A model generated the notes under the pieces. It did not search any database, was not told where the DNA came from, and was given only the letters and a program-made list of their open reading frames with translations. Of a DNA stretch of 36,600 bases, positions 3,941 through 34,867 are shown one piece after another (position 1 is the stretch's first letter; the number at the start of each line of letters is the position of its first letter). A program made the translations under genes and the position numbers. Origin of the DNA: a virus; IMG/VR virus record IMGVR_UViG_3300031951_000576, positions 1-36,600 of that record; one strand, written 5' to 3'.

Positions 3941-4276
3941 TCAGGCGACGGCCTTGGAAATCAGAACTTCATGCTCTGGTTCATGCGAGGACGGCCATTT
4001 CGGAAGCGGGGCATCCTGATTCGTGTGGTGCCGAAATGCCCAGACTTCATGCTGGCATTTCGCGTCACGCTCACATGTTGCGTAACCTGAAATGCGCTTC
4101 CCGTTGATTCGAACCGAAGCGGGGATGCTGAAATATGTGTCCGCAGTTTCGGCCATTTCAGCGGCACGAATGACGCCATCAGAGCAAAGGAGCCGATGGC
4201 CGTTCCGGGGATGAAGTCCCCAAGGATAGGAACGGGAAACGTGAGTCTTTCCAAGTGTGTTTTTCGTGATGTTCAT
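3941..4276 (-). CDS. Conserved phage hypothetical protein, 111 aa
   Basis: The protein has RLLCSDGVIRAAEMAETADTYFSIPASVRING followed by KRISGYATCERD, written here in parts as LLCSDGVIRAA, TADTYFSIPASVR and GKRISGYAT. I recall this pattern from phage proteins of unknown role. A competing open frame covers the same bases, but this frame has the family-like sequence. The start at 4276 is directly preceded by five ATCCC units, an unusual tandem-repeat leader. Confidence 0.7.
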   Translation of the reverse strand: MNITKNTLGKTHVSRSYPWGLHPRNGHRLLCSDGVIRAAEMAETADTYFSIPASVRINGKRISGYATCERDAKCQHEVWAFRHHTNQDAPLPKWPSSHEPEHEVLISKAVA

Positions 4277-4301
4277 GGGATGGGATGGGATGGGATGGGA
4301 T
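4277..4301. repeat. Tandem repeat, five GGGAT units (ATCCC on the coding strand)
   Basis: Five perfect 5-base units lie between the stop of the gene at 4301-4543 and the ATG of the gene at 3941-4276. They fill the whole leader of that gene, and the last unit overlaps the upstream stop codon by one base. The unit resembles the ATCC found just before the start codons of neighbouring genes, so the array may have grown from it by slippage. Confidence 0.9.
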
Positions 4302-4914: not shown

Positions 4915-5019
4915 TTAGAACTGGGAAGCGAAGAAAACGAAGAAAAAGGCGAAGCCCAAGGCAACGTAGGCAATGGCAATGGCAAGGAAGGAGAGGAGTT
5001 TTTGAAGCGCGGATTTCAT
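4915..5019 (-). CDS. Very small membrane protein, 34 aa
   Basis: The frame begins MKSALQKLLSF and then consists almost wholly of hydrophobic residues (AIAIAYVALGFAFFFVFF), forming one membrane span, and ends ASQF. A positively charged N-terminus suggests an N-in orientation. It is the first gene of the left minus-strand arm next to the divergent control region, so it would be transcribed early from that promoter. Function unknown; a role at the host inner membrane is inference only. Confidence 0.5.
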   Translation of the reverse strand: MKSALQKLLSFLAIAIAYVALGFAFFFVFFASQF

Positions 5020-5205
5020 TGGTGAGGACAGACTAGGGTGGAGGGTGGAAAACGTCAAAGAAAAAGTTTGAAAAAGTTTTAATGGAAGGGAAAACGAGGG
5101 GATTTCCTTAGGAAAACGAGGGAAAACGGAGGGCAACTAGACAGTGTCTAGATCTAGAAATCCGATTCCTTGCGGGATTCCTTGCCAGTCCGTACGGTGT
5201 CGGAA
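5020..5205. promoter_or_regulatory. Divergent control region with iteron-like repeats (candidate origin or switch)
   Basis: This gene-free gap separates the left minus-strand arm from the rightward morphogenesis genes. It holds four copies of GGAAAACG (5047, 5089, 5111, 5121), the last three followed by GAGG/AGGG, two adjacent 9-base copies of AAAAAGTTT (about 5061 and 5071), a perfect palindrome TTTCCTTAGGAAA at 5103-5115, and the overlapping palindromes at 5137-5158. Such a cluster of direct and inverted repeats is typical of replication origins and of phage operators. I cannot point to a convincing -35/-10 pair. Confidence 0.55.
5137..5158. promoter_or_regulatory. Two overlapping palindromes, probable operator
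   Basis: CTAGACAGTGTCTAG (5137-5151) is an inverted repeat of 7 bases around one central base, and TCTAGATCTAGA (5147-5158) is a perfect 12-base palindrome overlapping it. The pair lies 48 bases before the TerS-like gene. A dimeric repressor or activator could bind here; no repressor gene is visible in this window. Confidence 0.5.
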
Positions 5206-5667
5206 ATGAGAATGCCGAAGGAAGTCTGGCAGAAAGCCTGTAGCCTGTACCTTGCGGGAATGGAATGGGACGCAATTGCAGACAAGTTAAAGGTGAACAA
5301 AACGACACTTTGCAAACGTGCTAGCCTTGAGGGTGTCACGAAAGTAAGAAAGGAGATGAAAGCTGAATTTCCTTCTGAAATTTCTGTAAAGACAGAAAAG
5401 AGCTTAGAAGCTCTCTCCGCTTTGGTTCGAAGCAAGCTCGCCGCAGATGCTGCCAGCACCTTGGAAAGGATCGAAACGTATGACTTGGAAGGATTGAAGG
5501 ATGAAGGATTGCGCGAAACGATCCTTGCAAGTGTTGCGAAACGTAGCGCGCTGACATTCGGCTGGAGCGAAACGGGAGAGCAAGCCAGCGTTTCAATCAA
5601 TTTACTCGGTTCAATGCCTGACCGATCGGTTGAATTGAACGTCACAAGCGAACAGCCGAAAGAGTGA
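5206..5667 (+). CDS. Helix-turn-helix protein, probable terminase small subunit
   Basis: About 153 residues. Starts are possible at ATG 5206 or ATG 5212; frames further upstream use only TTG or GTG. The N-terminal 40 residues form a helix-turn-helix: VWQKACSLYLAGMEWDAIAD then KLKVNKTTLCKRASLEG. The rest is helical with many Glu/Lys residues (LRSKLAADA-like SKLAADAASTLERI), ending in a polar tail. This layout, an HTH followed by a helical oligomerisation region, is that of small terminase subunits, which bind the packaging site and load TerL. It lies apart from TerL (minus strand, 21031-22710), which is unusual. A plain transcription regulator is the main alternative. Confidence 0.5.
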   Translation: MRMPKEVWQKACSLYLAGMEWDAIADKLKVNKTTLCKRASLEGVTKVRKEMKAEFPSEISVKTEKSLEALSALVRSKLAADAASTLERIETYDLEGLKDEGLRETILASVAKRSALTFGWSETGEQASVSINLLGSMPDRSVELNVTSEQPKE

Positions 5668-6570: not shown

Positions 6571-7818
6571 ATGTCTTGTCCCAATGTCTTTAACGCCTTT
6601 GCCGTTGCGACTGAGTCGCTCGCGCAGGACGTTTACAAACGCGCCTCGTACCGTTCGATGTGGCTCAACCTCATTGAGCGCGGCGAGTATCCTCAGGGTA
6701 CGGGTCTGACCCAGACCTCGTTCACCACCACTTCCATCGAGCCGACTGCGGCTGAGGAGTGGTCTGCTATCACCCTCGCCAGCGGTAATCCCGGCGATAA
6801 CGGTGGTGCTTGCGATGTCACCTACAATGACGTTCCGGTCGGCTACAACGCTGTCACCTGGGGGCCTGAGCGTTTCGCTCTCAAAGGTCCGCTCCTGTGT
6901 AAGGATGATCTGACCTTTGATCATCGCGTCGAGGCGTTCTTGCGTGTGTATCTTGAGAAGCTCTCGATCCGCGCGCAGCGTTCGTGGGAGACTCGCTACC
7001 AGAACATGTTCGCCAAGTACGCCATCAAGGCGGTGGCCGACTCGTCCTTCACTCAGGTGGAGACGATTCCGAGCGGTGTGAACGAGTTGCCCTGGATTCA
7101 GACCGGCTCCGTTGGTCAGGCTTTGAATCAGGCCACCTCCGAGCTGACGCAGGAGATGCTCGATGTTGCCGCCGCCACGCTGATCCGCAATGGCGCGACG
7201 AATCCTGATAGCTCTGGTTTCATCAGCTTCTCCAGCGACGGTCCGGTGTTTCCGTTGTACATCGGCATGGAGGCCAGCCAGCGCATCGCTCAGAACAACG
7301 CCGCGCTGCGCGAGGATCTGCGCTTTGCCGATATGGGTTCTGGTCCGGGTGCTGAGCTGCTCAAGCGGATTGGCGCGAATCGGGTCATCAAGAACTTCCG
7401 CCATATCCCGAACCTGTTCCCGCCCCGCTTCAGCTACGCTGGCGGCAAGTACACGCTCATCCAGCCCTTCACCAGCACCAGCGGAACGAAGGGTACTGTG
7501 TTCAGCGTTAACCCGAGCTGGACGACCGCCTTGTACGAAGGTGCGTTCATCCCGACTCCGTACGTCATCAAGAGCCATATCGTTCGCCCGGTGAACCGTG
7601 TTGGCGACTTGAGCTGGCAGCCGACCAACTACATGGGCGAATGGCAGTGGGTGACTGGTGCCTACAAGCTCGATGTGGATTGCGCCGATCCTCTGGAGAA
7701 GAAGGGTCAGCACTACGCTGAGTTCGTTCATGCCGTGGAGCCAGTGTTCACCAATCAAGGAATGACTATCATCTTCCGTCGTTGCACCGGAGCTTTGTCT
7801 CAGATCATTTGTAGCTGA
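6571..7818 (+). CDS. Probable major capsid protein
   Basis: A 415-residue protein starting MSCPNVFNAFAVATESLAQD. The N-terminal half contains RASYRSMWLNLIERGEYPQ and then strands rich in Thr/Ser; a long helix follows (AFLRVYLEKLSIRAQRSWET) near residues 120-145, reminiscent of the spine helix of capsid folds; the C-terminal half is beta-rich with many aromatic residues. There is no signal peptide. Strong start region, size, soluble mixed alpha/beta character and position near the TerS-like gene and a small acidic protein fit a major capsid protein. The scaffold-like gene lies far away on the other strand. A terminator follows directly. I infer the role from layout and from remembered phage sequences. 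Confidence 0.65.
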   Translation: MSCPNVFNAFAVATESLAQDVYKRASYRSMWLNLIERGEYPQGTGLTQTSFTTTSIEPTAAEEWSAITLASGNPGDNGGACDVTYNDVPVGYNAVTWGPERFALKGPLLCKDDLTFDHRVEAFLRVYLEKLSIRAQRSWETRYQNMFAKYAIKAVADSSFTQVETIPSGVNELPWIQTGSVGQALNQATSELTQEMLDVAAATLIRNGATNPDSSGFISFSSDGPVFPLYIGMEASQRIAQNNAALREDLRFADMGSGPGAELLKRIGANRVIKNFRHIPNLFPPRFSYAGGKYTLIQPFTSTSGTKGTVFSVNPSWTTALYEGAFIPTPYVIKSHIVRPVNRVGDLSWQPTNYMGEWQWVTGAYKLDVDCADPLEKKGQHYAEFVHAVEPVFTNQGMTIIFRRCTGALSQIICS

Positions 7819-7909: not shown

Positions 7910-8677
7910 ATGGAGCAAGACGAACCAAAACGTGGCGACGTACGCGAATCGGATGGAATGGTCTGCTGGGGTTACACCTGGAAAGATCCGCAGGGAAACA
8001 AGCGGTATCAGTGGCTAACGCCCGAGCGTTTCGCCGAGAAGATGGCCGCTGATAAGGAGAGGTTGGCCAAGTACACAGCCGACAACGCTGAGAAAATCCG
8101 CGTGAAGCAGGCTGAGAAGTATCTCAAGAATGCGGAGTATTACAAAGCAGCGGCTAGGGGATATTACGCGAACAACAGGGACAAGATTCGTGAGCTTCAC
8201 AAAAAGTACCAAAAGGAAAACGCCGAGCATCTGAAGAAACAAAAGAACGAGTACCGCGCCGCGAATCGCGAGAAAGCAAGAGCGTGGGCCAGAAAGTACG
8301 GAAAAGTTCATCGCGCAAAGTTGACAGAAAAGCTCCGCGAGAAGCGTCGATCAGATCCTATGTTTCGACTGAAGGATGCGATTCGCGGCTCGATCCGTGC
8401 ATATCTCGGAAGCAAGAAGACTCGTCGTGGATCTACCTTCGAGATTGTCGGCTGCACTCCAGATTTCCTGCGTGAGCATTTGGAAAGGCAGTTTAAGCCC
8501 GGAATGACTTGGGATAATTACGGCTCGCACTGGCATGTTGATCATCGCATACCGTTGGCCAGCGGTCGTACTTCTGATGAGGTAAAAGGCTTGAGTCATT
8601 GGACCAATCTCCAGCCGTTGGAAGCGTTGGAGAATCTCATTAAGAGCGACAAGGTTCCACAGTCGGTAATGCCTTGA
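7910..8677 (+). CDS. Free-standing HNH endonuclease (homing-type)
   Basis: 255 residues from ATG 7910; ATG 7889 is also possible. Residues 15-45 hold CWGYTWKDPQG. Residues 55-135 are a long Lys/Glu/Tyr-rich region with near-repeated AEK-x-Y / NREKAR units, as in DNA-contacting linkers of homing endonucleases. The catalytic core is at residues 208-245: WHVDHRIPLASG, WTNLQPLEALENL and SDK, giving the H-x-DH-IPL / NLQP-L-x-x-x-EN layout of the HNH (beta-beta-alpha-metal) fold. It cuts DNA and probably spreads by copying itself into related phages. It sits directly after the capsid terminator as a separate gene; I see no intron or split capsid gene. Confidence 0.85.
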   Translation: MEQDEPKRGDVRESDGMVCWGYTWKDPQGNKRYQWLTPERFAEKMAADKERLAKYTADNAEKIRVKQAEKYLKNAEYYKAAARGYYANNRDKIRELHKKYQKENAEHLKKQKNEYRAANREKARAWARKYGKVHRAKLTEKLREKRRSDPMFRLKDAIRGSIRAYLGSKKTRRGSTFEIVGCTPDFLREHLERQFKPGMTWDNYGSHWHVDHRIPLASGRTSDEVKGLSHWTNLQPLEALENLIKSDKVPQSVMP

Positions 8678-11665: not shown

Positions 11666-11848
11666 ATGACTGAATCCCACTTCATGCGAGACATGCTTGC
11701 GGCAGCGAGTGGGCCAGTCATTGGAATACTCGGGAACGCGGTTTTTTCAGACCCGAATCTTAAGACGGCATCGCTCGCGTTCGGTGCCGTCACTGCTTTT
11801 ATTGTCTGCTTGTCCAAAGCCATCGACCTGTATCGAAAGCTCAAATGA
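11666..11848 (+). CDS. Small membrane protein, holin-like
   Basis: 60 residues with two hydrophobic stretches: GPVIGILGNAVF and TASLAFGAVTAFIVCLS, followed by the basic end KAIDLYRKLK. Size, two short membrane segments and a charged C-terminus are holin-like. It overlaps the next membrane gene by ATGA. The two may form a holin/antiholin pair that times lysis from the inner membrane. Confidence 0.55.
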   Translation: MTESHFMRDMLAAASGPVIGILGNAVFSDPNLKTASLAFGAVTAFIVCLSKAIDLYRKLK

Positions 11849-12036
11849 ACCCCAATCTTACCTCTCTCATCCGTCATCTTCTCTCCGCCGCTGGTGGTTT
11901 CCTCGTCGCCAAAGGTCTGGCTAGTGCCGATCAGGTCGCCGAACTTGCCGGTGCCACCGTGAGCATCATCGGCGTCGCTTGGTCGATCTTCAATAACAAG
12001 AAGGCTGCGAAGTCTGACGCTCCGAAGACCGAATGA
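11845..12036 (+). CDS. Putative holin (small membrane protein)
   Basis: 63 residues: LIRHLLSAAGGFLVAKG forms the first amphipathic/hydrophobic helix, SADQVAELAGATVSIIGVAWSIF the second, and a charged NNKKAAKSDAPKTE tail follows. This resembles a family of small phage holins with a helix-turn-helix membrane layout (RH-x-L-x-x-x-GG-x-L at the start, G-x-x-x-x-x-x-x-W-S at the end). It would open the inner membrane to let the lysin act. Coupled by ATGA on both sides. Confidence 0.65.
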   Translation: MNPNLTSLIRHLLSAAGGFLVAKGLASADQVAELAGATVSIIGVAWSIFNNKKAAKSDAPKTE

Positions 12037-14385: not shown

Positions 14386-15729
14386 TCAGGCAGATTCTTC
14401 AGGTCCGATTTCTGGGTCTTCGTTGAGCCTTTCAGCCAATTTATCATACTTTGTTTTCTTGTTTCGTTTCAGTTTATGCCTCTGTGGAATCGGGTCGAGA
14501 ACGTCGTCTAGCTTGATCGGTTTCTCAGGTGTAACGACATCTCGCTTGGGTCTAATCACCTTCGTCACCTCCAGCATGTCGGCCAATGGTAGCTTGATGT
14601 AGCCGCAATCAACGTCGTTGATGCCGTATGAGACGACGAAATGATTCTTCGCGCTGTCGTAGAACGCTCCGCACGGGAATACGACCGCAGGCAATCCCGG
14701 CCACCAGTCCTGCTGATTTGTGCCGGTGAGAAGTGGCAGCGTCGTCATGCGGACGATGCGGAATGGAGCCTTAGCCTCGAATGCGTAAGCTCCCATGTAG
14801 TAGCGACGCTTCTTATTTATCCACGGCAGCGAGCTGTGGAAGAAGGTCCAGTACAAGCCATCGACCAGAATGGGATTCGAGCCGCCGCGCACCTCGCCAA
14901 ACTTCCAGAGCGGATTGAACTCGTCGGTGACATACTCCGCTTCCTTCTCAAGACGCCCATTAAGGCGCACTACGACATGAGGATTGGCCGAATACACCAT
15001 GTGTGGCGTGTTATCGTGGACGAAGTAGAGCCAGTTCTTCTCATGGCCATCGTTCACCATCGCCTGCGCGTAGTTGTTGCCGTAGATCGGATCGAATCGA
15101 GCGACATTCAGGAACTGCTTGTCCAAGACGAACATTGCCTGATGCGCGTAGCTCTTGAATGGGACGAACGTGCAGCAGCTTAGTCCGTACTTGTCGCCGA
15201 ATTTGACCACTCGCGGATCTTCGAACTGCTCTCCCGGCATGTGCGAGGTAAGTGTCAGCAACGCCTTCTTGATGGCTCCAAGATCCTTGGTCAGCTCGAA
15301 GACAACGATGTCGTTCTTCTCAAGGTAAACGTCCTCATCCTTCTCGCGCTTGTTGCGGCAGCGTCGGGCGAAAAGCAGGATCTGACCGCTCGGTTCCTGA
15401 ATGATTGCGGGGTTGAAGTAGTAGGTTCCAACCTCCTCAGGAAGCGTGATTTTGCCAACCTCCCAGTCGCACTGTTCGGCCAGCTTGGGTACGTCGTTCT
15501 TTGCGTAGCTCATTAGAAACTCGGCTGCGAATTTGATTTCGTCGTATTGAGCAAGCCAATGGTCGCGCTCCTCGCGGACCTCGGTGAGATGCTCTTCGTT
15601 TTCTTTGGTTCGAATCTCAAGCGTCTTCTGCAAATCCTCGATCTGCATGAGCAAATCGGCCTGACCATCACCGCCATTTGCGAATCGTTTGAGAGCTTTA
15701 AGAGACAGACTTCGGATGATGTCTTTCAT
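14386..15729 (-). CDS. Five-bladed beta-propeller protein, GH130-like glycosidase/phosphorylase fold
   Basis: 447 residues. Residues 1-85 are a charged helical/coiled-coil segment not found in the enzymes. The propeller follows: YYFNPAIIQEPSGQILLFAR, FEDPRVVKFGDKYGLSC, GGSNPILVDGLYWTFFHSS, RRYYMGAYAFEA, and VVFPCGAFYD with FVVSYGINDVDCGYIKL. The N-P-A-I, EDPR, FP-x-G and YG-x-x-D motifs are those of the GH130 family (mannoside phosphorylases and mannosidases) and related propellers. It would act on a mannose-type or similar glycan, or only bind one. Its ATG shares a base with the stop of the GT25 gene (TAATG). Fold is fairly sure, substrate unknown. Confidence 0.65.
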   Translation of the reverse strand: MKDIIRSLSLKALKRFANGGDGQADLLMQIEDLQKTLEIRTKENEEHLTEVREERDHWLAQYDEIKFAAEFLMSYAKNDVPKLAEQCDWEVGKITLPEEVGTYYFNPAIIQEPSGQILLFARRCRNKREKDEDVYLEKNDIVVFELTKDLGAIKKALLTLTSHMPGEQFEDPRVVKFGDKYGLSCCTFVPFKSYAHQAMFVLDKQFLNVARFDPIYGNNYAQAMVNDGHEKNWLYFVHDNTPHMVYSANPHVVVRLNGRLEKEAEYVTDEFNPLWKFGEVRGGSNPILVDGLYWTFFHSSLPWINKKRRYYMGAYAFEAKAPFRIVRMTTLPLLTGTNQQDWWPGLPAVVFPCGAFYDSAKNHFVVSYGINDVDCGYIKLPLADMLEVTKVIRPKRDVVTPEKPIKLDDVLDPIPQRHKLKRNKKTKYDKLAERLNEDPEIGPEESA

Positions 15730-16358
15730 TATGGATACAATTTTGTGTTCTCCTGCGTAGCAAGCCTCGGAAGAATCCCGTAAAAGTTCATCCTAGGCAT
15801 CGAATCGACCAGCATCTGGATGTCGATTGGACCCCAAACCTTCTGATTCGTTTCGAGGAGTTTGCAGACACCTTCGTAATTTACAAGGTAAGCATGCGTA
15901 CACATGCCTCGGACCAGCTTGTAAAGATTCGACGCGATGTAGCCGTGGTCTTCAATCGGGTCGGCGCAGCAACTTCCGATGTAGACGACATGCCAGTCGC
16001 TCGGCAGATAGTCCAGATTGTCGGCCAGCTTTGCCTTCCAATCGGCGCATGTGAACTCAACGTCGTCCTCAACAATCAGAAACGTCCGATGATCAGTCAC
16101 CTTCGACTCAACCATCCATTTGATGGCCGACCAGACTGAGAAATGGCTGAGTCCGGCGACGATTGTTTTGACCTTCGCCTTCTCCTTCTCGCGTGTGTGG
16201 TAGTAGTCGGTCGAGATGCCGCAGTTCTCAGCCCTGAATCCATACATCGGAACCGCATCGATTCCGAATGTCTTCATGTAGCGGATGCAACGTCTTTCCT
16301 TCTCGCTTTCAGGCTTCGAGACGATGAAGCACGGCGTCTTTTCGAGCTGTAGTTTCAT
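15729..16358 (-). CDS. GT25-family-like glycosyltransferase (LPS type), copy 1
   Basis: 209 residues from ATG 16358 (ATGA overlap upstream). CFIVSKPESEKERRCIRYM forms the N-terminal strand and Arg-rich turn; GLSHFSVWSAI is the helix with the conserved G-x-x-x-S-H motif; FLIVEDDVEF holds the acidic nucleotide-sugar/metal site (residues 97-99); THAYLVNYEGVCKLLE and VWGPIDIQM follow. These match family GT25, enzymes that add galactose or glucose to lipopolysaccharide (LgtB/LpsA type). It is a diverged copy of the gene at 16950-17552, sharing the SCCA and ETN-x-x-V-x-x-PID-x-QM segments. Cytosolic; acceptor unknown. Confidence 0.75.
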   Translation of the reverse strand: MKLQLEKTPCFIVSKPESEKERRCIRYMKTFGIDAVPMYGFRAENCGISTDYYHTREKEKAKVKTIVAGLSHFSVWSAIKWMVESKVTDHRTFLIVEDDVEFTCADWKAKLADNLDYLPSDWHVVYIGSCCADPIEDHGYIASNLYKLVRGMCTHAYLVNYEGVCKLLETNQKVWGPIDIQMLVDSMPRMNFYGILPRLATQENTKLYP

Positions 16359-16945
16359 CGGTTCGGGAGGATGTAGATGATTCCGCGACGCGCGCCTACG
16401 CATCGACTGGGGTGGTTGTAATAGAAGCTGTAGCCGTACTTCTGCGTCAGGGTCTTGGCGCGGTAAATCGCGTCCAACTTCTCCTTGATGTAGCCGAGGC
16501 AGATGTCGTGGCCGTTGTAGCTGTCGTATCCAAGCTGTCCTGTCGGCTCCTTGAAATCGTGAATAGCAATGACCGGATGCAAATCGTATCGGTTGATTGC
16601 CTCAAGCTCTTCGAGCAGCGGGAGATAATCGTTCCAATGAGCGTCTAGGAAGAAGATTGTATCATGTCCAATTCCGTGATGCGGAATGAACCAGTTCATG
16701 CAGGCATCGCTGCTGCCCTCGAACATTTCGACGTAGACCTTCTCTCGCTTGAACTTCTCCTTAGCTCTCTCAACCAAGTCGTGGTTCAGCTCGCACGAAA
16801 CAGTCTTGATGAAGTTCTTGGCCAACCAAACGGTAGTGTCCGCTTCGTGAGTGCCGGTTTCGACAGCAGTCGTCAGCTCGAAGCGTTCTTTGAGGTAAAG
16901 AAACTCCTGCTCGATGAACGTGTCTCCATTGAAAGGTGAACCCAT
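16355..16945 (-). CDS. Class I SAM-dependent methyltransferase-like protein, copy 1
   Basis: About 196 residues from ATG 16945, chosen because it follows the upstream stop by four bases and has the AAATT-ATG context. Residues 26-35 read TAVETGTHEA, a variant of the E-x-G-x-x-x-G SAM-binding motif I, followed by TTVWLAKNF and VSCELNHDLVERAKEKF (acidic residue after strand 2). Later comes DTIFFLDAHWNDYLPLLEEL. Proteins of this type often lie in glycan gene clusters beside glycosyltransferases. It could methylate a sugar or another acceptor. Motif I has Thr where Gly is usual, so catalytic activity is not certain. Confidence 0.65.
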   Translation of the reverse strand: MGSPFNGDTFIEQEFLYLKERFELTTAVETGTHEADTTVWLAKNFIKTVSCELNHDLVERAKEKFKREKVYVEMFEGSSDACMNWFIPHHGIGHDTIFFLDAHWNDYLPLLEELEAINRYDLHPVIAIHDFKEPTGQLGYDSYNGHDICLGYIKEKLDAIYRAKTLTQKYGYSFYYNHPSRCVGARRGIIYILPNR

Positions 16946-16949
16946 AATT

Positions 16950-17552
16950 TTAGTCGGCCAAAGGACAGTCTTCTTGATCGGCAACTCGCGGGAAAATTGT
17001 GAAGCATTTCAGATGGTGGCGGCTCTTGAAGTACATCTGCAAATCGATTGGGGCGAAGACCTCTTCGTTTGTTTCGATGAGAGTCTTGAGAGCCTTTTTT
17101 CGGACGATGTAGCAGTGAGTGCAAAGCGGCATTCCCTCGAAGAGATTGGAATCCAGCTCGCATGAGAGCTTCCCGTGCGCGCAGCAGGAGCCAGGATAGA
17201 GAATATCCCAATCCTCGGGCAGCTTTGTCAGCGCACGTTCGATTGTTTCGCGCCAATGAGGACGGAACAGGATGTCATCCTCTAAGACCATCACCATGTC
17301 CGGCGTGGAAGGATCGAAATCCAGCGCGTTCCATAGCATCCAATGGGACATCGTGCATCCAACGTGCTTGGAGCAGATGAGGTAGCCTGAGCCGGGAGCA
17401 TCCACCTCGTACGGAATGCTCGCTTTCAGACCGGACTTCGCGCCGTTCAGGCCATAGAAAATGCGGTAGTCCGTGATTCCGGCGGAATCTAGGTTTCTTT
17501 GTAGACGCGGGATGCGAGAACTACCTCGCATCGTGATAACGACCGTTTGCAC
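16950..17552 (-). CDS. GT25-family-like glycosyltransferase (LPS type), copy 2
   Basis: 200 residues. The start is a GTG at 17552, needed to include the first strand (QTVVITMRGSSRIPRL); the next ATG would remove it. Domain marks are CTMSHWMLWNAL, MVMVLEDDILF (acidic site, residues 91-93), DILYPGSCCAHG, CTHCYIVRKKALKTLIETN and FAPIDLQMYF. This is the same family as the 15729-16358 gene, with clear similarity along the length. As a pair they could add two sugars in sequence. Follows the methyltransferase gene at 17557 after four bases. Confidence 0.75.
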   Translation of the reverse strand: MQTVVITMRGSSRIPRLQRNLDSAGITDYRIFYGLNGAKSGLKASIPYEVDAPGSGYLICSKHVGCTMSHWMLWNALDFDPSTPDMVMVLEDDILFRPHWRETIERALTKLPEDWDILYPGSCCAHGKLSCELDSNLFEGMPLCTHCYIVRKKALKTLIETNEEVFAPIDLQMYFKSRHHLKCFTIFPRVADQEDCPLAD

Positions 17553-17556
17553 GGGG

Positions 17557-18174
17557 TTATTTCAGTTTTCGATAGATGGCAAAAACGCTCTCGCTCAGGT
17601 CAAATCGCGAGACAAATTCGCAGCGTTTCAGAACGAATTTGAGAGCAGTCTGGGTTGATTCCCAGTTCACATCGTCCATCACGATGTAGCCGCCAACCTT
17701 GAGCTTCGGAAGCCAGTTGACGACATCGCTCGTAGACGGCCATTCGGCGTGATTCGCATCGATGTGAACCATGTCCATGTCCGGCAGGAATCGCGACGCA
17801 TCCCATGAGGACATGCGGCAGAACTGGATGTGCTTCACGACCTGCGCGCGGACGCAATGACCAACGAACGATTCGTAATGCTTGTTTAGATCGAGCGTTG
17901 ACCACCATTCCTGATTGGCACTCGTCTCGTCGTCGATGCAGTCCTCTTTCTTCCAAGAGTCGATGGCGTAAACGGTTCCGCTTCCGTTCAGCTTGCAGGC
18001 TTGAGCAAGAGCGAGCGTTGACTTGCCCTCGAAGACGCCAACTTCGGCGATACGCTGCGGCTTGGTTTCGAGAACAAGTTTGGCAATTTCCAAACCTTTC
18101 TTCGGGTCGCACCAACCGCCCATCTTCGGGAAGTTGTCGGCGATAAACTGAACGATGTTTTCTTCGTTTCCCAT
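17557..18174 (-). CDS. Class I SAM-dependent methyltransferase-like protein, copy 2
   Basis: 205 residues. RIAEVGVFEGKSTLALAQA (residues 41-59) is a good SAM motif I; GTVYAIDSWKKED holds the acidic residue after strand 2; DMVHIDANHAEWPSTSDV and GGYIVMDDVNW match the later strands of the Methyltransf_24-type family found in glycan and cell-surface loci. It is the first gene of the glycan cassette after the portal gene, with an AGAATT-ATG start context and five bases between. The acceptor is unknown; a sugar hydroxyl is the most likely by context. Confidence 0.75.
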   Translation of the reverse strand: MGNEENIVQFIADNFPKMGGWCDPKKGLEIAKLVLETKPQRIAEVGVFEGKSTLALAQACKLNGSGTVYAIDSWKKEDCIDDETSANQEWWSTLDLNKHYESFVGHCVRAQVVKHIQFCRMSSWDASRFLPDMDMVHIDANHAEWPSTSDVVNWLPKLKVGGYIVMDDVNWESTQTALKFVLKRCEFVSRFDLSESVFAIYRKLK

Positions 18175-20429: not shown

Positions 20430-21034
20430 GGTCGTTTTTTCCAGCAGTGAGCTGGCAAGTTTGCGTTCTCTGTAGCGTCCGTAAATTTATGGAGTGTTTC
20501 AATGGGAAACCACACCATGCTTCTGATGAAGCAACCACAAAATTCACAGCTTTGAAGCTGGTCGTCTAGTGGCGTTGTTCCGTGTTGAGAAAGCGTTCTA
20601 ACAGCCTCTTTGAGGACGCGAGCGTTACATCCGGTGCATCCAAGCGGCTTTCGGTTGAACTGACATCCAGCGCAAATGCTCGCCCTTCGAATCGCTTCCG
20701 CCTGATCCACCTTACCGCCGCCAACGGTCAGCCCATGAATCAGGCTCATGCTGAAGCGGATAACGTCTCCGATCTGAAGAGATTTCAAACCTTTTGGCTT
20801 AGGAATCTCAATTTCGTCGTAGGAACAATCAGCACCGTTACGGCACTGATACTCAGTGATTAAGATGTCGAGGTTGTCTGGAACTTTTACCGCGTTGGCG
20901 GCGTAATGGTTTCGGACGAACTCGCGGAGCTGCGGCAATGAACCGGCGGGTATCTCGATTCCGGTTTCAGGAACGCGGTAGTTCCATCCGCCAGGGATTA
21001 CATTGTGTTCATTGAGAATCTTGTAGCCGCTCAT
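20414..21034 (-). CDS. Zinc-cluster protein between TerL and portal
   Basis: 206 residues from ATG 21034 (ATGA overlap with TerL). The N-terminal half is an alpha/beta segment (GWNYRVPETGIEI, SLPQLREFVRNHY). The C-terminal half has ICAGCQFNRKPLGCTGC, then LQSCEFCGCFIRSMV and LPAHCWKK: two C-x2-C pairs plus C-x2-C-x-C and a final CW, enough for two or more zinc ions. The family is one I associate with phage packaging loci but whose function is unknown. Its place between terminase and portal suggests packaging or head assembly. Confidence 0.65.
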   Translation of the reverse strand: MSGYKILNEHNVIPGGWNYRVPETGIEIPAGSLPQLREFVRNHYAANAVKVPDNLDILITEYQCRNGADCSYDEIEIPKPKGLKSLQIGDVIRFSMSLIHGLTVGGGKVDQAEAIRRASICAGCQFNRKPLGCTGCNARVLKEAVRTLSQHGTTPLDDQLQSCEFCGCFIRSMVWFPIETLHKFTDATENANLPAHCWKKRPCTET

Positions 21035-22710
21035 ACGTCCCCGTCGTAGTAAATGGAGTCTGCGTCCCTCACCAGCTTTTCCCATACCTTGTCAGCTTTT
21101 GTTGCTCGCGGTTCAAAGGAGGCGGTTTTACGCACCAGATCAAGCAGGACTACAGCAGCGTCGGCCAAGTCAGGCGATTTGCCAGTTCTTTGCTTCATCA
21201 CAGTCTTCGATTCGACGGATATCTTACGCTTCCCATCGTCGAACATTCGCGCACAGAACTCCTGCAATGTCTCGATGTCCATGCCGCCGACCCGCTCCTC
21301 GACAACCCATTTACGCATCGAGAACCAGAGTTCTGTCACCTTGCGGTCGTAAGCCTCATTGCATGGCCTACTATCCTCGTCGCTGACCGGAATGGTCGAT
21401 GGAGAGCCGCCGAACTCAACGCGATGAACCACACCCCATTCGCGGGTTAGAATGTCCGCAAGACCGCCACCCTCACCGCTTGAATCGAGAGCGAACTTGT
21501 CCGGTGGAACGCCGCGCTTGTTGCATTCCTCTTTAACTCGATTGGCTATCTGGTAATGGACCGGCTCGGTGAGCTGTGCGTTCGGTGATATCTGGATGAT
21601 GTCCTGAAAGAGAATGCTCAGCTTGTCGTTAGCGGTGCCAACCTTGGCAAAGCGAAGGACGCATCTATCGCCGCCAAAACCCGGATCAAGACCGGCAACA
21701 ATTTGGACGTTTGTAGTAAACACCAAATTTTTTGTAGGTGTGTGCGTTTCGATAAGCGACTCAGACAGCACCGTCTTGACCATGCCGTCAGGACTCCAGA
21801 ATCCGCGTGTGTACTTCCAGAACGTAGGACTCTGCTCGCCCTCATGGCGCATCGCTGACAAGACCTGATCTTGGGTGATGAGATATGGGTACTTCGTTCG
21901 CCCCTCAGTGATGTTCGGCGACTTCATGCCGTCGAAACGTCGGCACATACCGCGTTCCGTTAGCCAATGCTGATCTTCAATCGTGACGCTGCGCCATCCT
22001 TTTGCCGGTGTGCAGAATCTGCCGTGCGGATCGAACTTTGATGCCGGATTCCCAATGACCAGCATCTTGAACTCACGGCAACCCTTGGAGAGGTTCGTGC
22101 AAGCCTCGAACGCTGCTTCAGGCGTATCCGTTGCTTCGTCGATAATGACCATCACGCGTTCCGCATGAATACCCTGAATGTTGGCCACCGCCTTCGAGGT
22201 GTTACCTTCGGCGACGGCGATAGCTGAAATAGAGTGCCGGTCGTCACCTTTGACAGCCTGTAACGCCATCTTCGAATCGACCATGTTGCCGGGGAATCCT
22301 CGCGATTTCCGAACAAGATCCTGAAGATTGGCCCACATACGCTTTCGGATCATCTTCGCGGTCGTCGATGTCAGGACAACCGTTGACTTGGCAGGGTTGG
22401 CCAACCACCAGACCGTCGCAAAAAGCGTTGCGCCAAAGGTCTTTCCGCTCGCTCCGCATCCCGCCCATCCAACGTAGTCATGCTCACAGAGGCTTTCGAC
22501 TTGAGCTTCAAGCCACGGGTTCCAGCTCATCTTCGGCCAGAGCATTTTCGTCGCATTCTGAAAATGTTCGAAAGTACCTAGTCCACCCTCGTTTGGTTGG
22601 AGTCGATTGCGGAAAGCGTACAGCTCCAGTTCAAGATCGGGAATCTTGACGGGAGAACGTATTCCGTACTTGTGGTCGATCAGTGGATTCTCAGACACTT
22701 GCTCTGCCAT
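21031..22710 (-). CDS. terL: Terminase large subunit
   Basis: 559 residues from ATG 22710, which has AAGG eight bases upstream; a start at 22725 is possible. The ATPase domain has Walker A GCGASGKT (about residues 84-91) and Walker B VMVIIDEAT (about 187-194), with a STT coupling-type motif between. The nuclease domain has GLDPGFGGD (acidic residue near 341), FALDSSGEGGG (near 408) and GKSPDLADA (near 513-516), the three acidic sites of an RNase H-fold packaging nuclease. It pumps DNA into the prohead through the portal and cuts concatemers. It leads the minus-strand head operon. Confidence 0.9.
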   Translation of the reverse strand: MAEQVSENPLIDHKYGIRSPVKIPDLELELYAFRNRLQPNEGGLGTFEHFQNATKMLWPKMSWNPWLEAQVESLCEHDYVGWAGCGASGKTFGATLFATVWWLANPAKSTVVLTSTTAKMIRKRMWANLQDLVRKSRGFPGNMVDSKMALQAVKGDDRHSISAIAVAEGNTSKAVANIQGIHAERVMVIIDEATDTPEAAFEACTNLSKGCREFKMLVIGNPASKFDPHGRFCTPAKGWRSVTIEDQHWLTERGMCRRFDGMKSPNITEGRTKYPYLITQDQVLSAMRHEGEQSPTFWKYTRGFWSPDGMVKTVLSESLIETHTPTKNLVFTTNVQIVAGLDPGFGGDRCVLRFAKVGTANDKLSILFQDIIQISPNAQLTEPVHYQIANRVKEECNKRGVPPDKFALDSSGEGGGLADILTREWGVVHRVEFGGSPSTIPVSDEDSRPCNEAYDRKVTELWFSMRKWVVEERVGGMDIETLQEFCARMFDDGKRKISVESKTVMKQRTGKSPDLADAAVVLLDLVRKTASFEPRATKADKVWEKLVRDADSIYYDGDV

Positions 22711-22764
22711 AGTTTGGCCTTGCATTAGTTGTCGTTGGACTTGAGGTTGTGCGAAAGGAAAAAT
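22711..22764. promoter_or_regulatory. Short divergent gap between TerL and fibre genes
   Basis: Only 54 bases separate the TerL start (minus) from the fibre start (plus). Two divergent promoters would have to overlap here or lie inside the coding ends. The plus-strand side has GAAAGGA before AAAAT-ATG, a usable Shine-Dalgarno site. No clear -35/-10 pair is visible. Confidence 0.35.
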
Positions 22765-23970
22765 ATGCCGTCGCAACTTGTTTCTTCATCCGGCTGTTGC
22801 CAGCCTTGCGACTCCGAGCCGGTAGTCGTGAATATCCCCGGTCCTCAAGGGGCAGCGGGTACAAACGGCACCAATGGCACGAACGGAATTGATTCGTTTA
22901 CCTACACGACGGCTGCGTTTTTTGTTCCTGCGCTTGGTTCGAGTGTTCTTGTTTTCGTCGATAACACCGAGTTTCTTCCCGAATCAGTCGCCGGACAGTT
23001 TTTCGTTTCGATTCAGGGTCTTGGGTACATGCAGGTTCTGTCGGTTGACGGCTTGCAGCTAACGCTTCAAAACCCCGCTCCCGGCGTTCTCGGCATTGCC
23101 AATGCGGTTCCGACTACGCTGATTCCTCCCGGTTCGCTCATCACGCTAGCTGGAGCGATTGGTCCTACGGGTGCTGCGGGTGTTTCTGGCGGTGCGCCGG
23201 TTGGGGCTTCCTACATTTGTCGAACAGCGGATGGAACTCTAACGAACGAGACAGCTCTTGATTCGCTTGCTGCCGGTTACATGAAGACCGCCGGATCTGG
23301 CGGTGCTGGCGTCGTCTCGACGGTGGCGACGGTTCCGGTTGGCGACATCAGCGGCACGTTGCCGATTGCTAAAGGTGGAACCAACCTGACAACCGCCCCA
23401 GCAAACAAGATTCCGGTGGGCGATGGAACCACCTATCTCCAGAAGGAAATCGTCGGAACAGCTCCGATTGTCGTCACGAATTCGACTGGAAACATCACGC
23501 TGTCCGCGCCTTCAATCGTTCCGTTCAACTACGTCACGTTTACGCGGAGGGTGACTGGTCTTGGGGCGGCAAATGCACCGAACGTCAGCCCAACTTCAGC
23601 AAGCAATCCGTACAGCACATCTGTTTACACGACGGCATCTTATGCTGGCCTTGATTCAGCTTCTGGATTCACGGCATCAAGTGGACGTTTTACCGTTCCT
23701 TACACCGGATACTACAGAATAGACGCCTATTTCAATCTTGATGCGGTATCAACAACCGCAACTGTCACTGTTTTTATCAGAAAAAATGGCTCTGACGTTT
23801 TGGCTTCTAGGTCATTCAATGTGACAAGCAGTGGGTATCACCCAATATCATTGGTTTACATTGATCAAGCATCAGCTCTAACTGATTATTACGAGGTATT
23901 GGTTGGCACAGACCATAACCTTTACGTCGATCAAGGTTCCTCATTCTCTGTCCAGCGGATTCAGGCTTAA
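22765..23970 (+). CDS. Fibre protein with collagen-like and C1q-like parts
   Basis: 401 residues from ATG 22765; upstream in-frame codons are TTG only. Residues 10-15 hold a Cys cluster (GCCQPC). A collagen-like G-x-y run lies at 26-41 (GPQGAAGTNGTNGTNG) and a second near 134-147 (GAIGPTGAAGVSGG). The C-terminal 130 residues resemble a C1q/TNF-type trimeric head: FNYVTFTRRV, GRFTVPYTGYYRIDAYF, VTVFIRKNGSDVL and YYEVLVGTDHNLYV. Such fibres are trimers, with the head likely binding the receptor. The C-terminal DNA is more A/T-rich than the N-terminal DNA, as expected for exchanged receptor modules. It is the first gene of the tail operon. Confidence 0.7.
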   Translation: MPSQLVSSSGCCQPCDSEPVVVNIPGPQGAAGTNGTNGTNGIDSFTYTTAAFFVPALGSSVLVFVDNTEFLPESVAGQFFVSIQGLGYMQVLSVDGLQLTLQNPAPGVLGIANAVPTTLIPPGSLITLAGAIGPTGAAGVSGGAPVGASYICRTADGTLTNETALDSLAAGYMKTAGSGGAGVVSTVATVPVGDISGTLPIAKGGTNLTTAPANKIPVGDGTTYLQKEIVGTAPIVVTNSTGNITLSAPSIVPFNYVTFTRRVTGLGAANAPNVSPTSASNPYSTSVYTTASYAGLDSASGFTASSGRFTVPYTGYYRIDAYFNLDAVSTTATVTVFIRKNGSDVLASRSFNVTSSGYHPISLVYIDQASALTDYYEVLVGTDHNLYVDQGSSFSVQRIQA

Positions 23971-32871: not shown

Positions 32872-33060
32872 ATGGACAAGATGAAACTTGGTGGTGGCGG
32901 ACGGTATGAGAAGCTCGTTGGCGAGCTTGAGAAGAAGGGCGTCAAAGATCCGGCGGCATTAAGTGCCGCAATCGGACGCAAAAAATACGGCAAGGCGAAG
33001 TTCCAATCGCTCGCCGCCAAAGGCCGTCGCCGCGCTGAACGCGAGAAGGCTAACGCCTAG
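32872..33060 (+). CDS. Small basic phage protein (KKYGKxKF motif)
   Basis: 62 residues, strongly basic: GGGGRYEKLVGELEKKGVKDP, then ALSAAIGRKKYGKAKFQSL and AKGRRRAEREKANA. The GVK-(D/N)P-x-AL-x-A-x-IGRKKYGK-x-KF pattern is common in small phage proteins, often near the two types seen at 12333-12750. It may bind nucleic acid. Its end overlaps the end of the primase gene on the other strand by 11 bases. A start at 32881 is also possible. Confidence 0.7.
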   Translation: MDKMKLGGGGRYEKLVGELEKKGVKDPAALSAAIGRKKYGKAKFQSLAAKGRRRAEREKANA

Positions 33061-34867
33061 GTCGTCCGCCCCACGGCTTCTTCGTCGTAGCCGCCGCCTT
33101 ATCGACTACAAACTGCTCAGGCGGTGCGTAGTCCCAGGATATCGTTCCGACTCCTCGTTGAATGACGATAGAGCCGGTTTTGTTTCCGTTTTTATCCTTC
33201 AGTCCTGACCTATCTCCGCGCTTCGCCATTCCGAGCATGAAGCGTCGCGGCTGATTGAATCCAACTTCCTTCAGGACAATTACCTCTCTCGCCCAGTTGG
33301 TCAGGTCGGAGCTTCCGAATCCTGAGTAGGCCATGTCTGCCACGCTCTCCGGTTTTTCGTCCTTACCCTTCGGCTTGGGGAAGTGATGAACCAGCACGAT
33401 GACGACTCCTGTCTCCATCATAATCGGCTGGAGCAGATGTCGCGTGAAGTTCGCGCAGACCTCGATGTCCGATGGATTTCCGCCGATGTAGGAGAGCAGA
33501 GGGTCGATATAGACAATGTCTACTTTCGTTTTTCGAATAAGACGGCGCAGCATGGTCGTGAACTCCACGCCGGTTCGAACTGCCTCTCTGAAGAAGAGCA
33601 TGTCCGCACGGCGCAATCCGTTCTGCCAATCGCTTCCGAAGACCATCTGCGCGGCTCCTTTCAGTGCATCATGCTGATCGGCGATGTCGTTCTCAGCTTG
33701 AACGTAGGCCACCTTGAGCGGTCGTACCGGCTGACATCCGAACCAATCTGAACCTATGGCCCACCTCAGTCCTTGATAGAACGCCATCGAGCTTTTGCCG
33801 CATCCGCTCTGACCGACAAAGAGGACCGATGAACCGCGCCGAATCCATCTGTCACCAATCAGGTTGTCAGGGTCGTTCTCAGGATCGTAGTCGATGATGC
33901 TCTGGAGCGTGAACTCCTGAGGCATGTCCTGGGACTCCAGATAGTCCGTGAACGCATCCCAGTTCACGACGCCCACATTGATGGCGACAAGCCTCTGCTC
34001 CTTGCCATCGCGCATCACACCGGCAAGACGAGAGAACCTGCTCGCGTTCTTGTTCTTCGGATCGATGCCCAACGCTTCCAGATGGCGATAGACGACATCA
34101 CGACGCTCGTTCCATTCCTCCTTGTTCGCCGCTTCAACGCGCACCCATCCGTGCAGACTCTTGCCGCCGGAATCGATGACGACAGAGAGTGGCAGCTTGG
34201 ACTCCTTCAGGATCGTCCATTGCTCGTCCTTCGTCTTGTCATCCATCTCGACCAGCACATGGCGGAAGGCTGACACGCCGGAATCCGAACCTGTCTCATC
34301 CAAGCACGGGTTGACCCGCACATACGCGCCACGGCTATCAGGACCGTTCCACATGGAACTTATGGGCGGCGTGAAATGCTTCTCAATCCATTCGTCGCGC
34401 TTGAGGAACGTACCCTTGGACGCTGGCCTACCCTTACCCTCCTCGTCGCAGATGATGTCATTGCAGATGCAGACAACTTCATCCGGCTCGAAGCAGGCTT
34501 TGAGAAAGTCGATGGTTGTAAATCGGCATTCCGGTTGCGGAATTGCTTGGATCTTTTGAACGATGAACTTGCCGGTCGTGGATACCGGCGTTCCGCTTTG
34601 TGCTGAGAGAAGCCATCCCTTCGGCTTGTCGTGCGTCACGGTCATCGCCTGATTGACCTTGTGGGCCAATTCGTTCGGCTTCCACGGCGGAACGCACTTC
34701 GCGTTGTACTCGCTCAGCAGCATCTCCGCATCGGAGCGTGATAGCTCGAAGCCATGAACTAGAGCGGTAGCTACTGCGAAGGTTGTGTTATGACCTCCCT
34801 GACCGCTAACGGCTCCGGGGGTGTTTCGAAGCCATGCTCGCGCACGGTCGATATTTGAATTGCTCAT
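33050..34867 (-). CDS. Primase-helicase: PriCT-like, AEP-type primase and RecA-type ATPase fusion
   Basis: 605 residues. Residues 1-75 resemble a PriCT/D5_N-type helical domain (ISGQGGH-like VSGQGGHNTTFAVATALVHG). Residues 200-290 carry archaeo-eukaryotic primase motifs: LVEMDD (207-210), VVIDSGGKSLHGWVRV (229-244) and ASRFSRLAGV (275-284). Residues 340-560 form a RecA/AAA_25-type ATPase with Walker A GQSGCGKSS (352-360), Walker B DIVYIDP (450-456) and VIVLVHHF. It probably makes primers and unwinds or loads on DNA for phage replication. The last residues are basic (KKPWGGRPRR). It begins the leftward minus genes seen here and ends by overlapping the last tail gene. Confidence 0.8.
   Translation of the reverse strand: MSNSNIDRARAWLRNTPGAVSGQGGHNTTFAVATALVHGFELSRSDAEMLLSEYNAKCVPPWKPNELAHKVNQAMTVTHDKPKGWLLSAQSGTPVSTTGKFIVQKIQAIPQPECRFTTIDFLKACFEPDEVVCICNDIICDEEGKGRPASKGTFLKRDEWIEKHFTPPISSMWNGPDSRGAYVRVNPCLDETGSDSGVSAFRHVLVEMDDKTKDEQWTILKESKLPLSVVIDSGGKSLHGWVRVEAANKEEWNERRDVVYRHLEALGIDPKNKNASRFSRLAGVMRDGKEQRLVAINVGVVNWDAFTDYLESQDMPQEFTLQSIIDYDPENDPDNLIGDRWIRRGSSVLFVGQSGCGKSSMAFYQGLRWAIGSDWFGCQPVRPLKVAYVQAENDIADQHDALKGAAQMVFGSDWQNGLRRADMLFFREAVRTGVEFTTMLRRLIRKTKVDIVYIDPLLSYIGGNPSDIEVCANFTRHLLQPIMMETGVVIVLVHHFPKPKGKDEKPESVADMAYSGFGSSDLTNWAREVIVLKEVGFNQPRRFMLGMAKRGDRSGLKDKNGNKTGSIVIQRGVGTISWDYAPPEQFVVDKAAATTKKPWGGRPRR

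Follow-up and report, generated by a model that had tools for sequence, protein, structure and literature searches.

The gene-free gap at 5020-5205 of virus record IMGVR_UViG_3300031951_000576 carries two predicted promoters placed back to back, an architecture conserved in 77 non-redundant relatives, and the block before its rightward gene is exchanged among relatives together with the HTH codons of that gene. The record is linear, and its whole length of 36.6 kb is the window analyzed here. We interpret the gap as a control region for divergent transcription, in which the right half (~5134-5205) may be the cognate site bound by the HTH protein whose gene follows directly, a reading that comes just under an even chance. 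The further proposal, that this protein is a small terminase and the site its pac and autoregulatory site, is put forward tentatively, at somewhat short of even.

Predicted back-to-back promoters between two gene arms

The gap separates a leftward ATG at 5019 from a rightward ATG at 5206; its 186 bases are indeed free of genes and lie between oppositely transcribed arms, as a sequence-only reading had noted. The leftward arm begins with a gene for a 34-aa small membrane protein (MKSALQKLLSF..., 4915-5019, minus strand); the identity of this first gene changes among relatives, and its promoter, PL, is kept. The arm continues through a part missing from the record to a primase-helicase at 33050-34867 and also encodes a Holliday-junction resolvase; in a complete relative, SSB-, helicase-, ThyX-, exonuclease-, and RecT-like genes were read by eye in it. 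The leftward gene at 4276 starts directly at a tandem array of 5.4 ATGGG units (4275-4301), read as CCCAT repeats just upstream of the ATG on the gene strand; their copy number could differ between phages. The rightward arm starts with the 153-aa HTH protein and includes genes for a DUF5843 protein, an endonuclease VII-like protein, a lectin-domain tail protein or tail fibre, and a holin.

The relatives were collected by protein match. Alignment with a relative of 45.5 kb indicates that ~10 kb is absent from the record. The ends are permuted among the 45-46-kb relatives, two of which circularise via a 127-bp overlap. One contig, IMGVR_UViG_3300021962_000056 (L101/L038), is 92.5 kb long, twice the usual genome length, has a single HTH-gene match, and is possibly chimeric.

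In the 77 gaps, a sigma70-type promoter precedes both flanking starts, its -10 hexamer ending 4-10 nt before the start codon; -35/-10 pairs at 16-18 bp are present on both strands. PL consists of TTGACG (5053-5058, minus strand) and TAGTCT (5030-5035, minus strand, 10 nt before the ATG at 5019), separated by a 17-nt spacer that is found in 63 of the 77 non-redundant gaps; the PL -10 lies mostly 6-10 nt before the start codon. The rightward promoter PR consists of TTGCGG (5170-5175, plus strand) and TACGGT (5193-5198, plus strand), the latter 7 nt before the ATG at 5206. The TTG is present in 96% of the 77 gaps, the distance to the start codon is 6-8 nt in 72/77, and the spacer is 17 in 73/77. 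This spacing is kept although PR sequences are unrelated between HTH types. Mean sigma70 scores were 10.14 for PL vs 6.52 in shuffles (the best among several start codons was chosen, with shuffles treated alike) and 8.89 vs 6.17 for PR; the consensus used presumes such promoters in the host. A genome scan for that host with the primase and a TerL (large terminase) alignment gave no match.

Since only 6-10 nt separate the -10 from the start codon, the PL and PR transcripts would be nearly leaderless, each beginning within a few bases of its first codon. Short or absent leaders fit the lack of Shine-Dalgarno enrichment at the gene starts of the record (12% vs 9.7% background). Further strong near-leaderless promoters precede the plus-strand starts at 7910 (TTGCCA-17-TATTTT-8-ATG) and 8708 (TTGACA-16-GATGCT-6-ATG).

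Behind PL lies a 22-nt UP-element-like AT tract (5059-5080, minus strand), with a mean AT content of 84% and a minimum of 77%, vs 52% across whole gaps (71 gaps). Two predicted outward-firing sigma70-type promoters with an AT-rich tract abutting the -35 resemble divergent phage control regions with UP-element promoters; the short distance from the -10 to the start codon distinguishes the present case. The GTCAA of the PL -35 was the anchor of a 38-gap alignment set. Each genome has a single PL block, which therefore defines no regulon.

Repeat words, G/A boxes, and the origin question

The sequence-only reading had listed four copies of GGAAAACG, two of AAAAAGTTT, and the palindrome TTTCCTTAGGAAA in the gap, and had suggested an origin of replication or a master control region. 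All the words are present: GGAAAACG at 5047, 5089, 5111, and 5121, with only two copies elsewhere in the record (8215, plus strand, and 25594, minus strand); AAAAAGTTT at 5061 and 5071, with no further copy in the record; and the palindrome at 5103-5115 (plus strand, 6-bp arms, 1-nt centre). When the gap was shuffled with its dinucleotide composition preserved, at least one 8-mer with four copies arose in 32/5000 and a 12-bp direct repeat in 3/1000, vs 143/1000 for a palindrome with arms of at least 6, so that the repeats are modestly above chance and the palindrome is not.

Among the relatives, these exact words are largely unconserved. The number of GGAAAACG copies drops from four to zero, the word being absent from 40 of 71 related gaps, and the palindrome is retained in 3/71. 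What is conserved is a shorter box, a G-run followed by an A-run, at a fixed distance from PL. Box 2, which coincides with the third GGAAAACG copy (5111-5118, plus strand), lies ~57 bp from the PL -35 and is found in 90% of the 71 gaps, vs 3% in the shuffled control; its offset has a standard deviation of 2.6 relative to PL and 24 relative to the rightward start. Box 1, coinciding with the second copy within GGGAAAACG (5088-5096, plus strand), lies ~35 bp from the PL -35 and is found in 46%. The fourth copy, again within GGGAAAACG (5120-5128, plus strand), is 10 bp from the third, and a third G/A box ~10 bp further on is seen in a minority of kin. The first copy (5047-5054, plus strand) overlaps the PL -35 and spacer and is not conserved. 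Thus, copies 2 and 3 are best read as instances of looser conserved G/A boxes, and the AAAAAGTTT pair, with its 10-bp period inside the AT tract, as this record's version of the conserved PL tract. The exact words GGAAAACG, AAAAAGTTT, and the palindrome are evidently not the functional unit.

The suggestion of a master control region agrees with the conserved back-to-back promoters between the two arms; that of an origin with GGAAAACG iterons is not supported. The two outcomes named beforehand as refuting it, repeats that are not conserved and an unchanged skew, largely apply to the exact words. Detrended GC-skew extremes lie kilobases away, and there is no skew turn at the gap in the record and six relatives, a weak test in phages. 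AT skew shifts near the gap, as expected because the coding strand changes there. Four copies of GGAAAACG in 186 bp exceed chance, which speaks for iterons; with their loss in most kin, the first copy inside PL, two others being G/A boxes, and no conserved direct-repeat array formed by this word, we find this origin reading very improbable indeed.

In a different form of the origin hypothesis, the HTH protein would initiate replication and the type-specific repeats next to PR would be its iterons; should the gap be an origin, these repeats (5164-5185), and not GGAAAACG, would be the iteron candidates. In the PLE replicon of Vibrio satellites, the RepA_N domain covaries with ori, the C-terminal domain is constant, and modules swap (PMC8263062). 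The same covariation is seen here, between the DNA-binding domain and the adjacent site, with a constant C-terminus, and tandem repeats and predicted curvature are present. Unlike the site considered here, the PLE site is an origin with ~30-bp iterons and a replication initiator. Since none of seven genomes has a skew turn here, the replication genes sit in the opposite arm, and the AT-rich tract is already explained by PL, we consider an initiator improbable.

Co-exchange of the rightward promoter block and the HTH half

The HTH protein consists of two unlike halves. The HTH half (aa 1-48, 5206-5349, plus strand) is hypervariable and falls into 11 types, and the C-terminal half (aa 67-142, 5404-5631, plus strand) is near-invariant; the top-residue frequency is 0.61-0.65 in the former vs 0.87-0.90 in the latter. 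The ~60 bases before the gene start follow the HTH type and hardly anything else. In Mantel tests, for which the floor of p is set by the permutation number and relatives are handled as exchangeable, HTH and PR block correlated with r 0.63 at the lowest p possible in the test (r 0.53, p 0.001 in the first relative set). The correlation was 0.15 between HTH and PL, and neither HTH vs C-terminus (r 0.06) nor C-terminus vs PR block (r 0.07) was significant. Pairs with HTH identity >90% have a PR similarity of 0.75 (n=190), and pairs with HTH <60% one of 0.15, with a maximum of 0.41 (n=1981).

Individual pairs point to recent exchanges in both senses. In 41 pairs, for example L103/L087 and L124/L113, PL and C-terminus are common and HTH and PR differ; in L124/L114, HTH and PR are common and PL differs. 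From these comparisons we regard it as solid that the PR block and the HTH half are exchanged together as one cassette (5134-5349, plus strand, borders approximate). Such pairing is as expected for a lock-and-key pair, for example, a packaging start site and its recognition protein.

The PR block contains repeats and dyads that the sequence-only reading had overlooked. The tandem GATTCCTTGC (5164-5185, plus strand, copies at 5164 and 5176) has a 12-bp step, overlaps the PR -35, arose in 0/300 shuffles, and has no exact copies elsewhere in the record; it is a type-specific repeat and a candidate site of the HTH protein. The dyad CTAGACAGTGTCTAG (5137-5151, plus strand, 7-bp arms, 40/1000 shuffles), a possible operator, is represented in close relatives by variants such as CTTGACGGTGTCAAG..., and TCTAGATCTAGA occupies 5147-5158. 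Other HTH types have their own repeats, for example GCTTGTCGTCAGC. In the 75 nt upstream of the start, 8 of the 11 types have significant exact direct repeats (9-13 bp, uncorrected p < 0.05), and in six of these eight the step is 9-12 bp, approximately one helical turn. Against a cognate site, the repeats are not significant in three of the 11 types, and in some types they lie just upstream of PR rather than on it.

Other explanations of the cassette dispense with packaging. Recombination in the conserved flanks could move a cassette without any binding; thus exchanges within the PL block and the C-terminal codons might carry PR and HTH along without mutual recognition. The flanks are conserved, the by-eye reading includes RecT- and exonuclease-like genes, and the unlike cassettes have no common homology for recombination. 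We consider such hitchhiking quite improbable, as it leaves unexplained both the persistence of 11 unrelated PR blocks with their HTH types and the recurrence of helically spaced repeats in several types.

Alternatively, the HTH protein could be a transcription regulator only, forming a heteroimmunity-like repressor/operator switch between the arms; it would bind the PR repeats and possibly also the G/A boxes behind PL. The repeats on or beside PR, the typical position of such a switch between divergent promoters, and the weak family matches of the protein, mostly to general DNA-binding or regulator families, agree with this. Against it, operator copies were not found at other promoters, and exact motif copies show no enrichment in other parts of the tested genomes; in several types the repeats are mostly direct and not inverted; and the strong conservation of the C-terminal half points to a partner that is itself conserved. 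A pure regulator is doubtful, though a real possibility.

A putative packaging site and its counterparts

In the mechanism that we favor, PL and PR would fire outward, and oligomers of the HTH protein would bind the helically spaced direct repeats at PR and shut this promoter off. The protein would be the small terminase subunit and its site pac, the start of packaging, with site and HTH half swapping between relatives as one cassette while the C-terminal half stays fixed. The terminase reading agrees with the size and domain plan of the protein, with its place as first gene of the rightward arm, and with the helical repeats, the predicted bend, and the permuted genomes. The 153-aa product of PR has the size and N-terminal HTH expected of a TerS of 15-21 kDa, and these features, with tentatively also two predicted helices and short strands, match the TerS plan described in PMC9611059. 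The predicted model is poor overall (pLDDT 59, with ~80 for the HTH helices); for the helical-hairpin oligomerisation core and stalk expected of a TerS, it offers, at low confidence, helices at 66-91 and 100-113 and two short strands. The predicted curvature of the record has its maximum in the gap, calculated with wedge parameters; the peak is strong only in the record and its closest relatives, the mean z across 42 gaps being 0.78, and because it is weak across kin we treat curvature as a side feature.

Against a terminase, neither sequence nor fold comparison gave a significant match to a known small terminase. Foldseek returned nothing significant, phage protein 2ao9 being among the matches at E ~1, and PHROG terminase matches are weak and limited to the HTH (phrog_2606, E 0.0017; phrog_509, E 0.005, in L112), with none for the protein of this record. 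The HTH gene is also not beside TerL, which lies ~16 kb away at 21031-22776 on the opposite strand and in a different operon; a small terminase gene beside that of the large terminase is usual, not universal. There is no accumulation of contig ends at the gap, an observation that is neutral with respect to pac.

The closest counterpart is provided by Bacillus phages SPP1/SF6, in which pac overlaps the promoters and DNA-binding-domain codons of gene 1, the small terminase gene, and SPP1 pac comprises direct-repeat sets with proposed intrinsically bent DNA (PMC6316719, PMC4737164). Here, the putative site likewise overlaps a predicted promoter, adjoins the HTH codons, and has direct repeats and a predicted bend. 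In contrast to SPP1/SF6, the HTH gene is not followed directly by that of the large terminase, transcription is divergent, and there are 11 site/HTH types. In lambda-like phages, the N-terminal HTH of TerS reads repeated cos sites (cosB), the C-terminal half binds TerL, and a lambda-21 chimera demonstrates that the two parts are separable (PMC9026076). The two halves of the HTH protein similarly vary separately; unlike in lambda-like cos systems, the contigs are permuted.

We speculate, as a rather unlikely extension, that this lake phage family carries a polymorphic specificity locus, in which at least 11 swappable site and HTH cassettes, flanked by an unvarying leftward promoter on one side and an unvarying C-terminal half on the other, would form a packaging or replication barcode. 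Its diversity would be kept by selection, for example, from satellites or co-infecting relatives exploiting a common packaging signal. If HTH and PR block are cognate, dozens of natural recombinants would constitute a code table that assigns a DNA site to each HTH sequence, and would allow a test of whether selection in wild phage populations diversifies the specificity of packaging or regulation. For an abundant group of uncultured freshwater phages, the gap also supplies rules on promoters and start sites.

Annotated phages gave no near DNA match to the record, no match to the HTH protein, and only ~25% identity for the large terminase; Rfam and tRNA searches gave no match. Several other genes deserve mention. 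A 415-aa protein (6571-7818, plus strand) with 91-98% identity among relatives is a candidate structural protein; it has no family match, and its predicted structure is unusable (pLDDT 27). The gene at 11845-12036 (plus strand) encodes a member of the Pam3 gp28 holin family (Pfam E 3e-18); that this family takes its name from phage Pam3 may be a clue to the host. A glycoside hydrolase family 130 match (14386-15729, minus strand, Pfam E 3e-9) is unusual for a phage, and adjacent glucosyltransferase-like genes and a DNA methyltransferase-like gene (15729-18174, minus strand) hint at modified DNA or sugar decoration.
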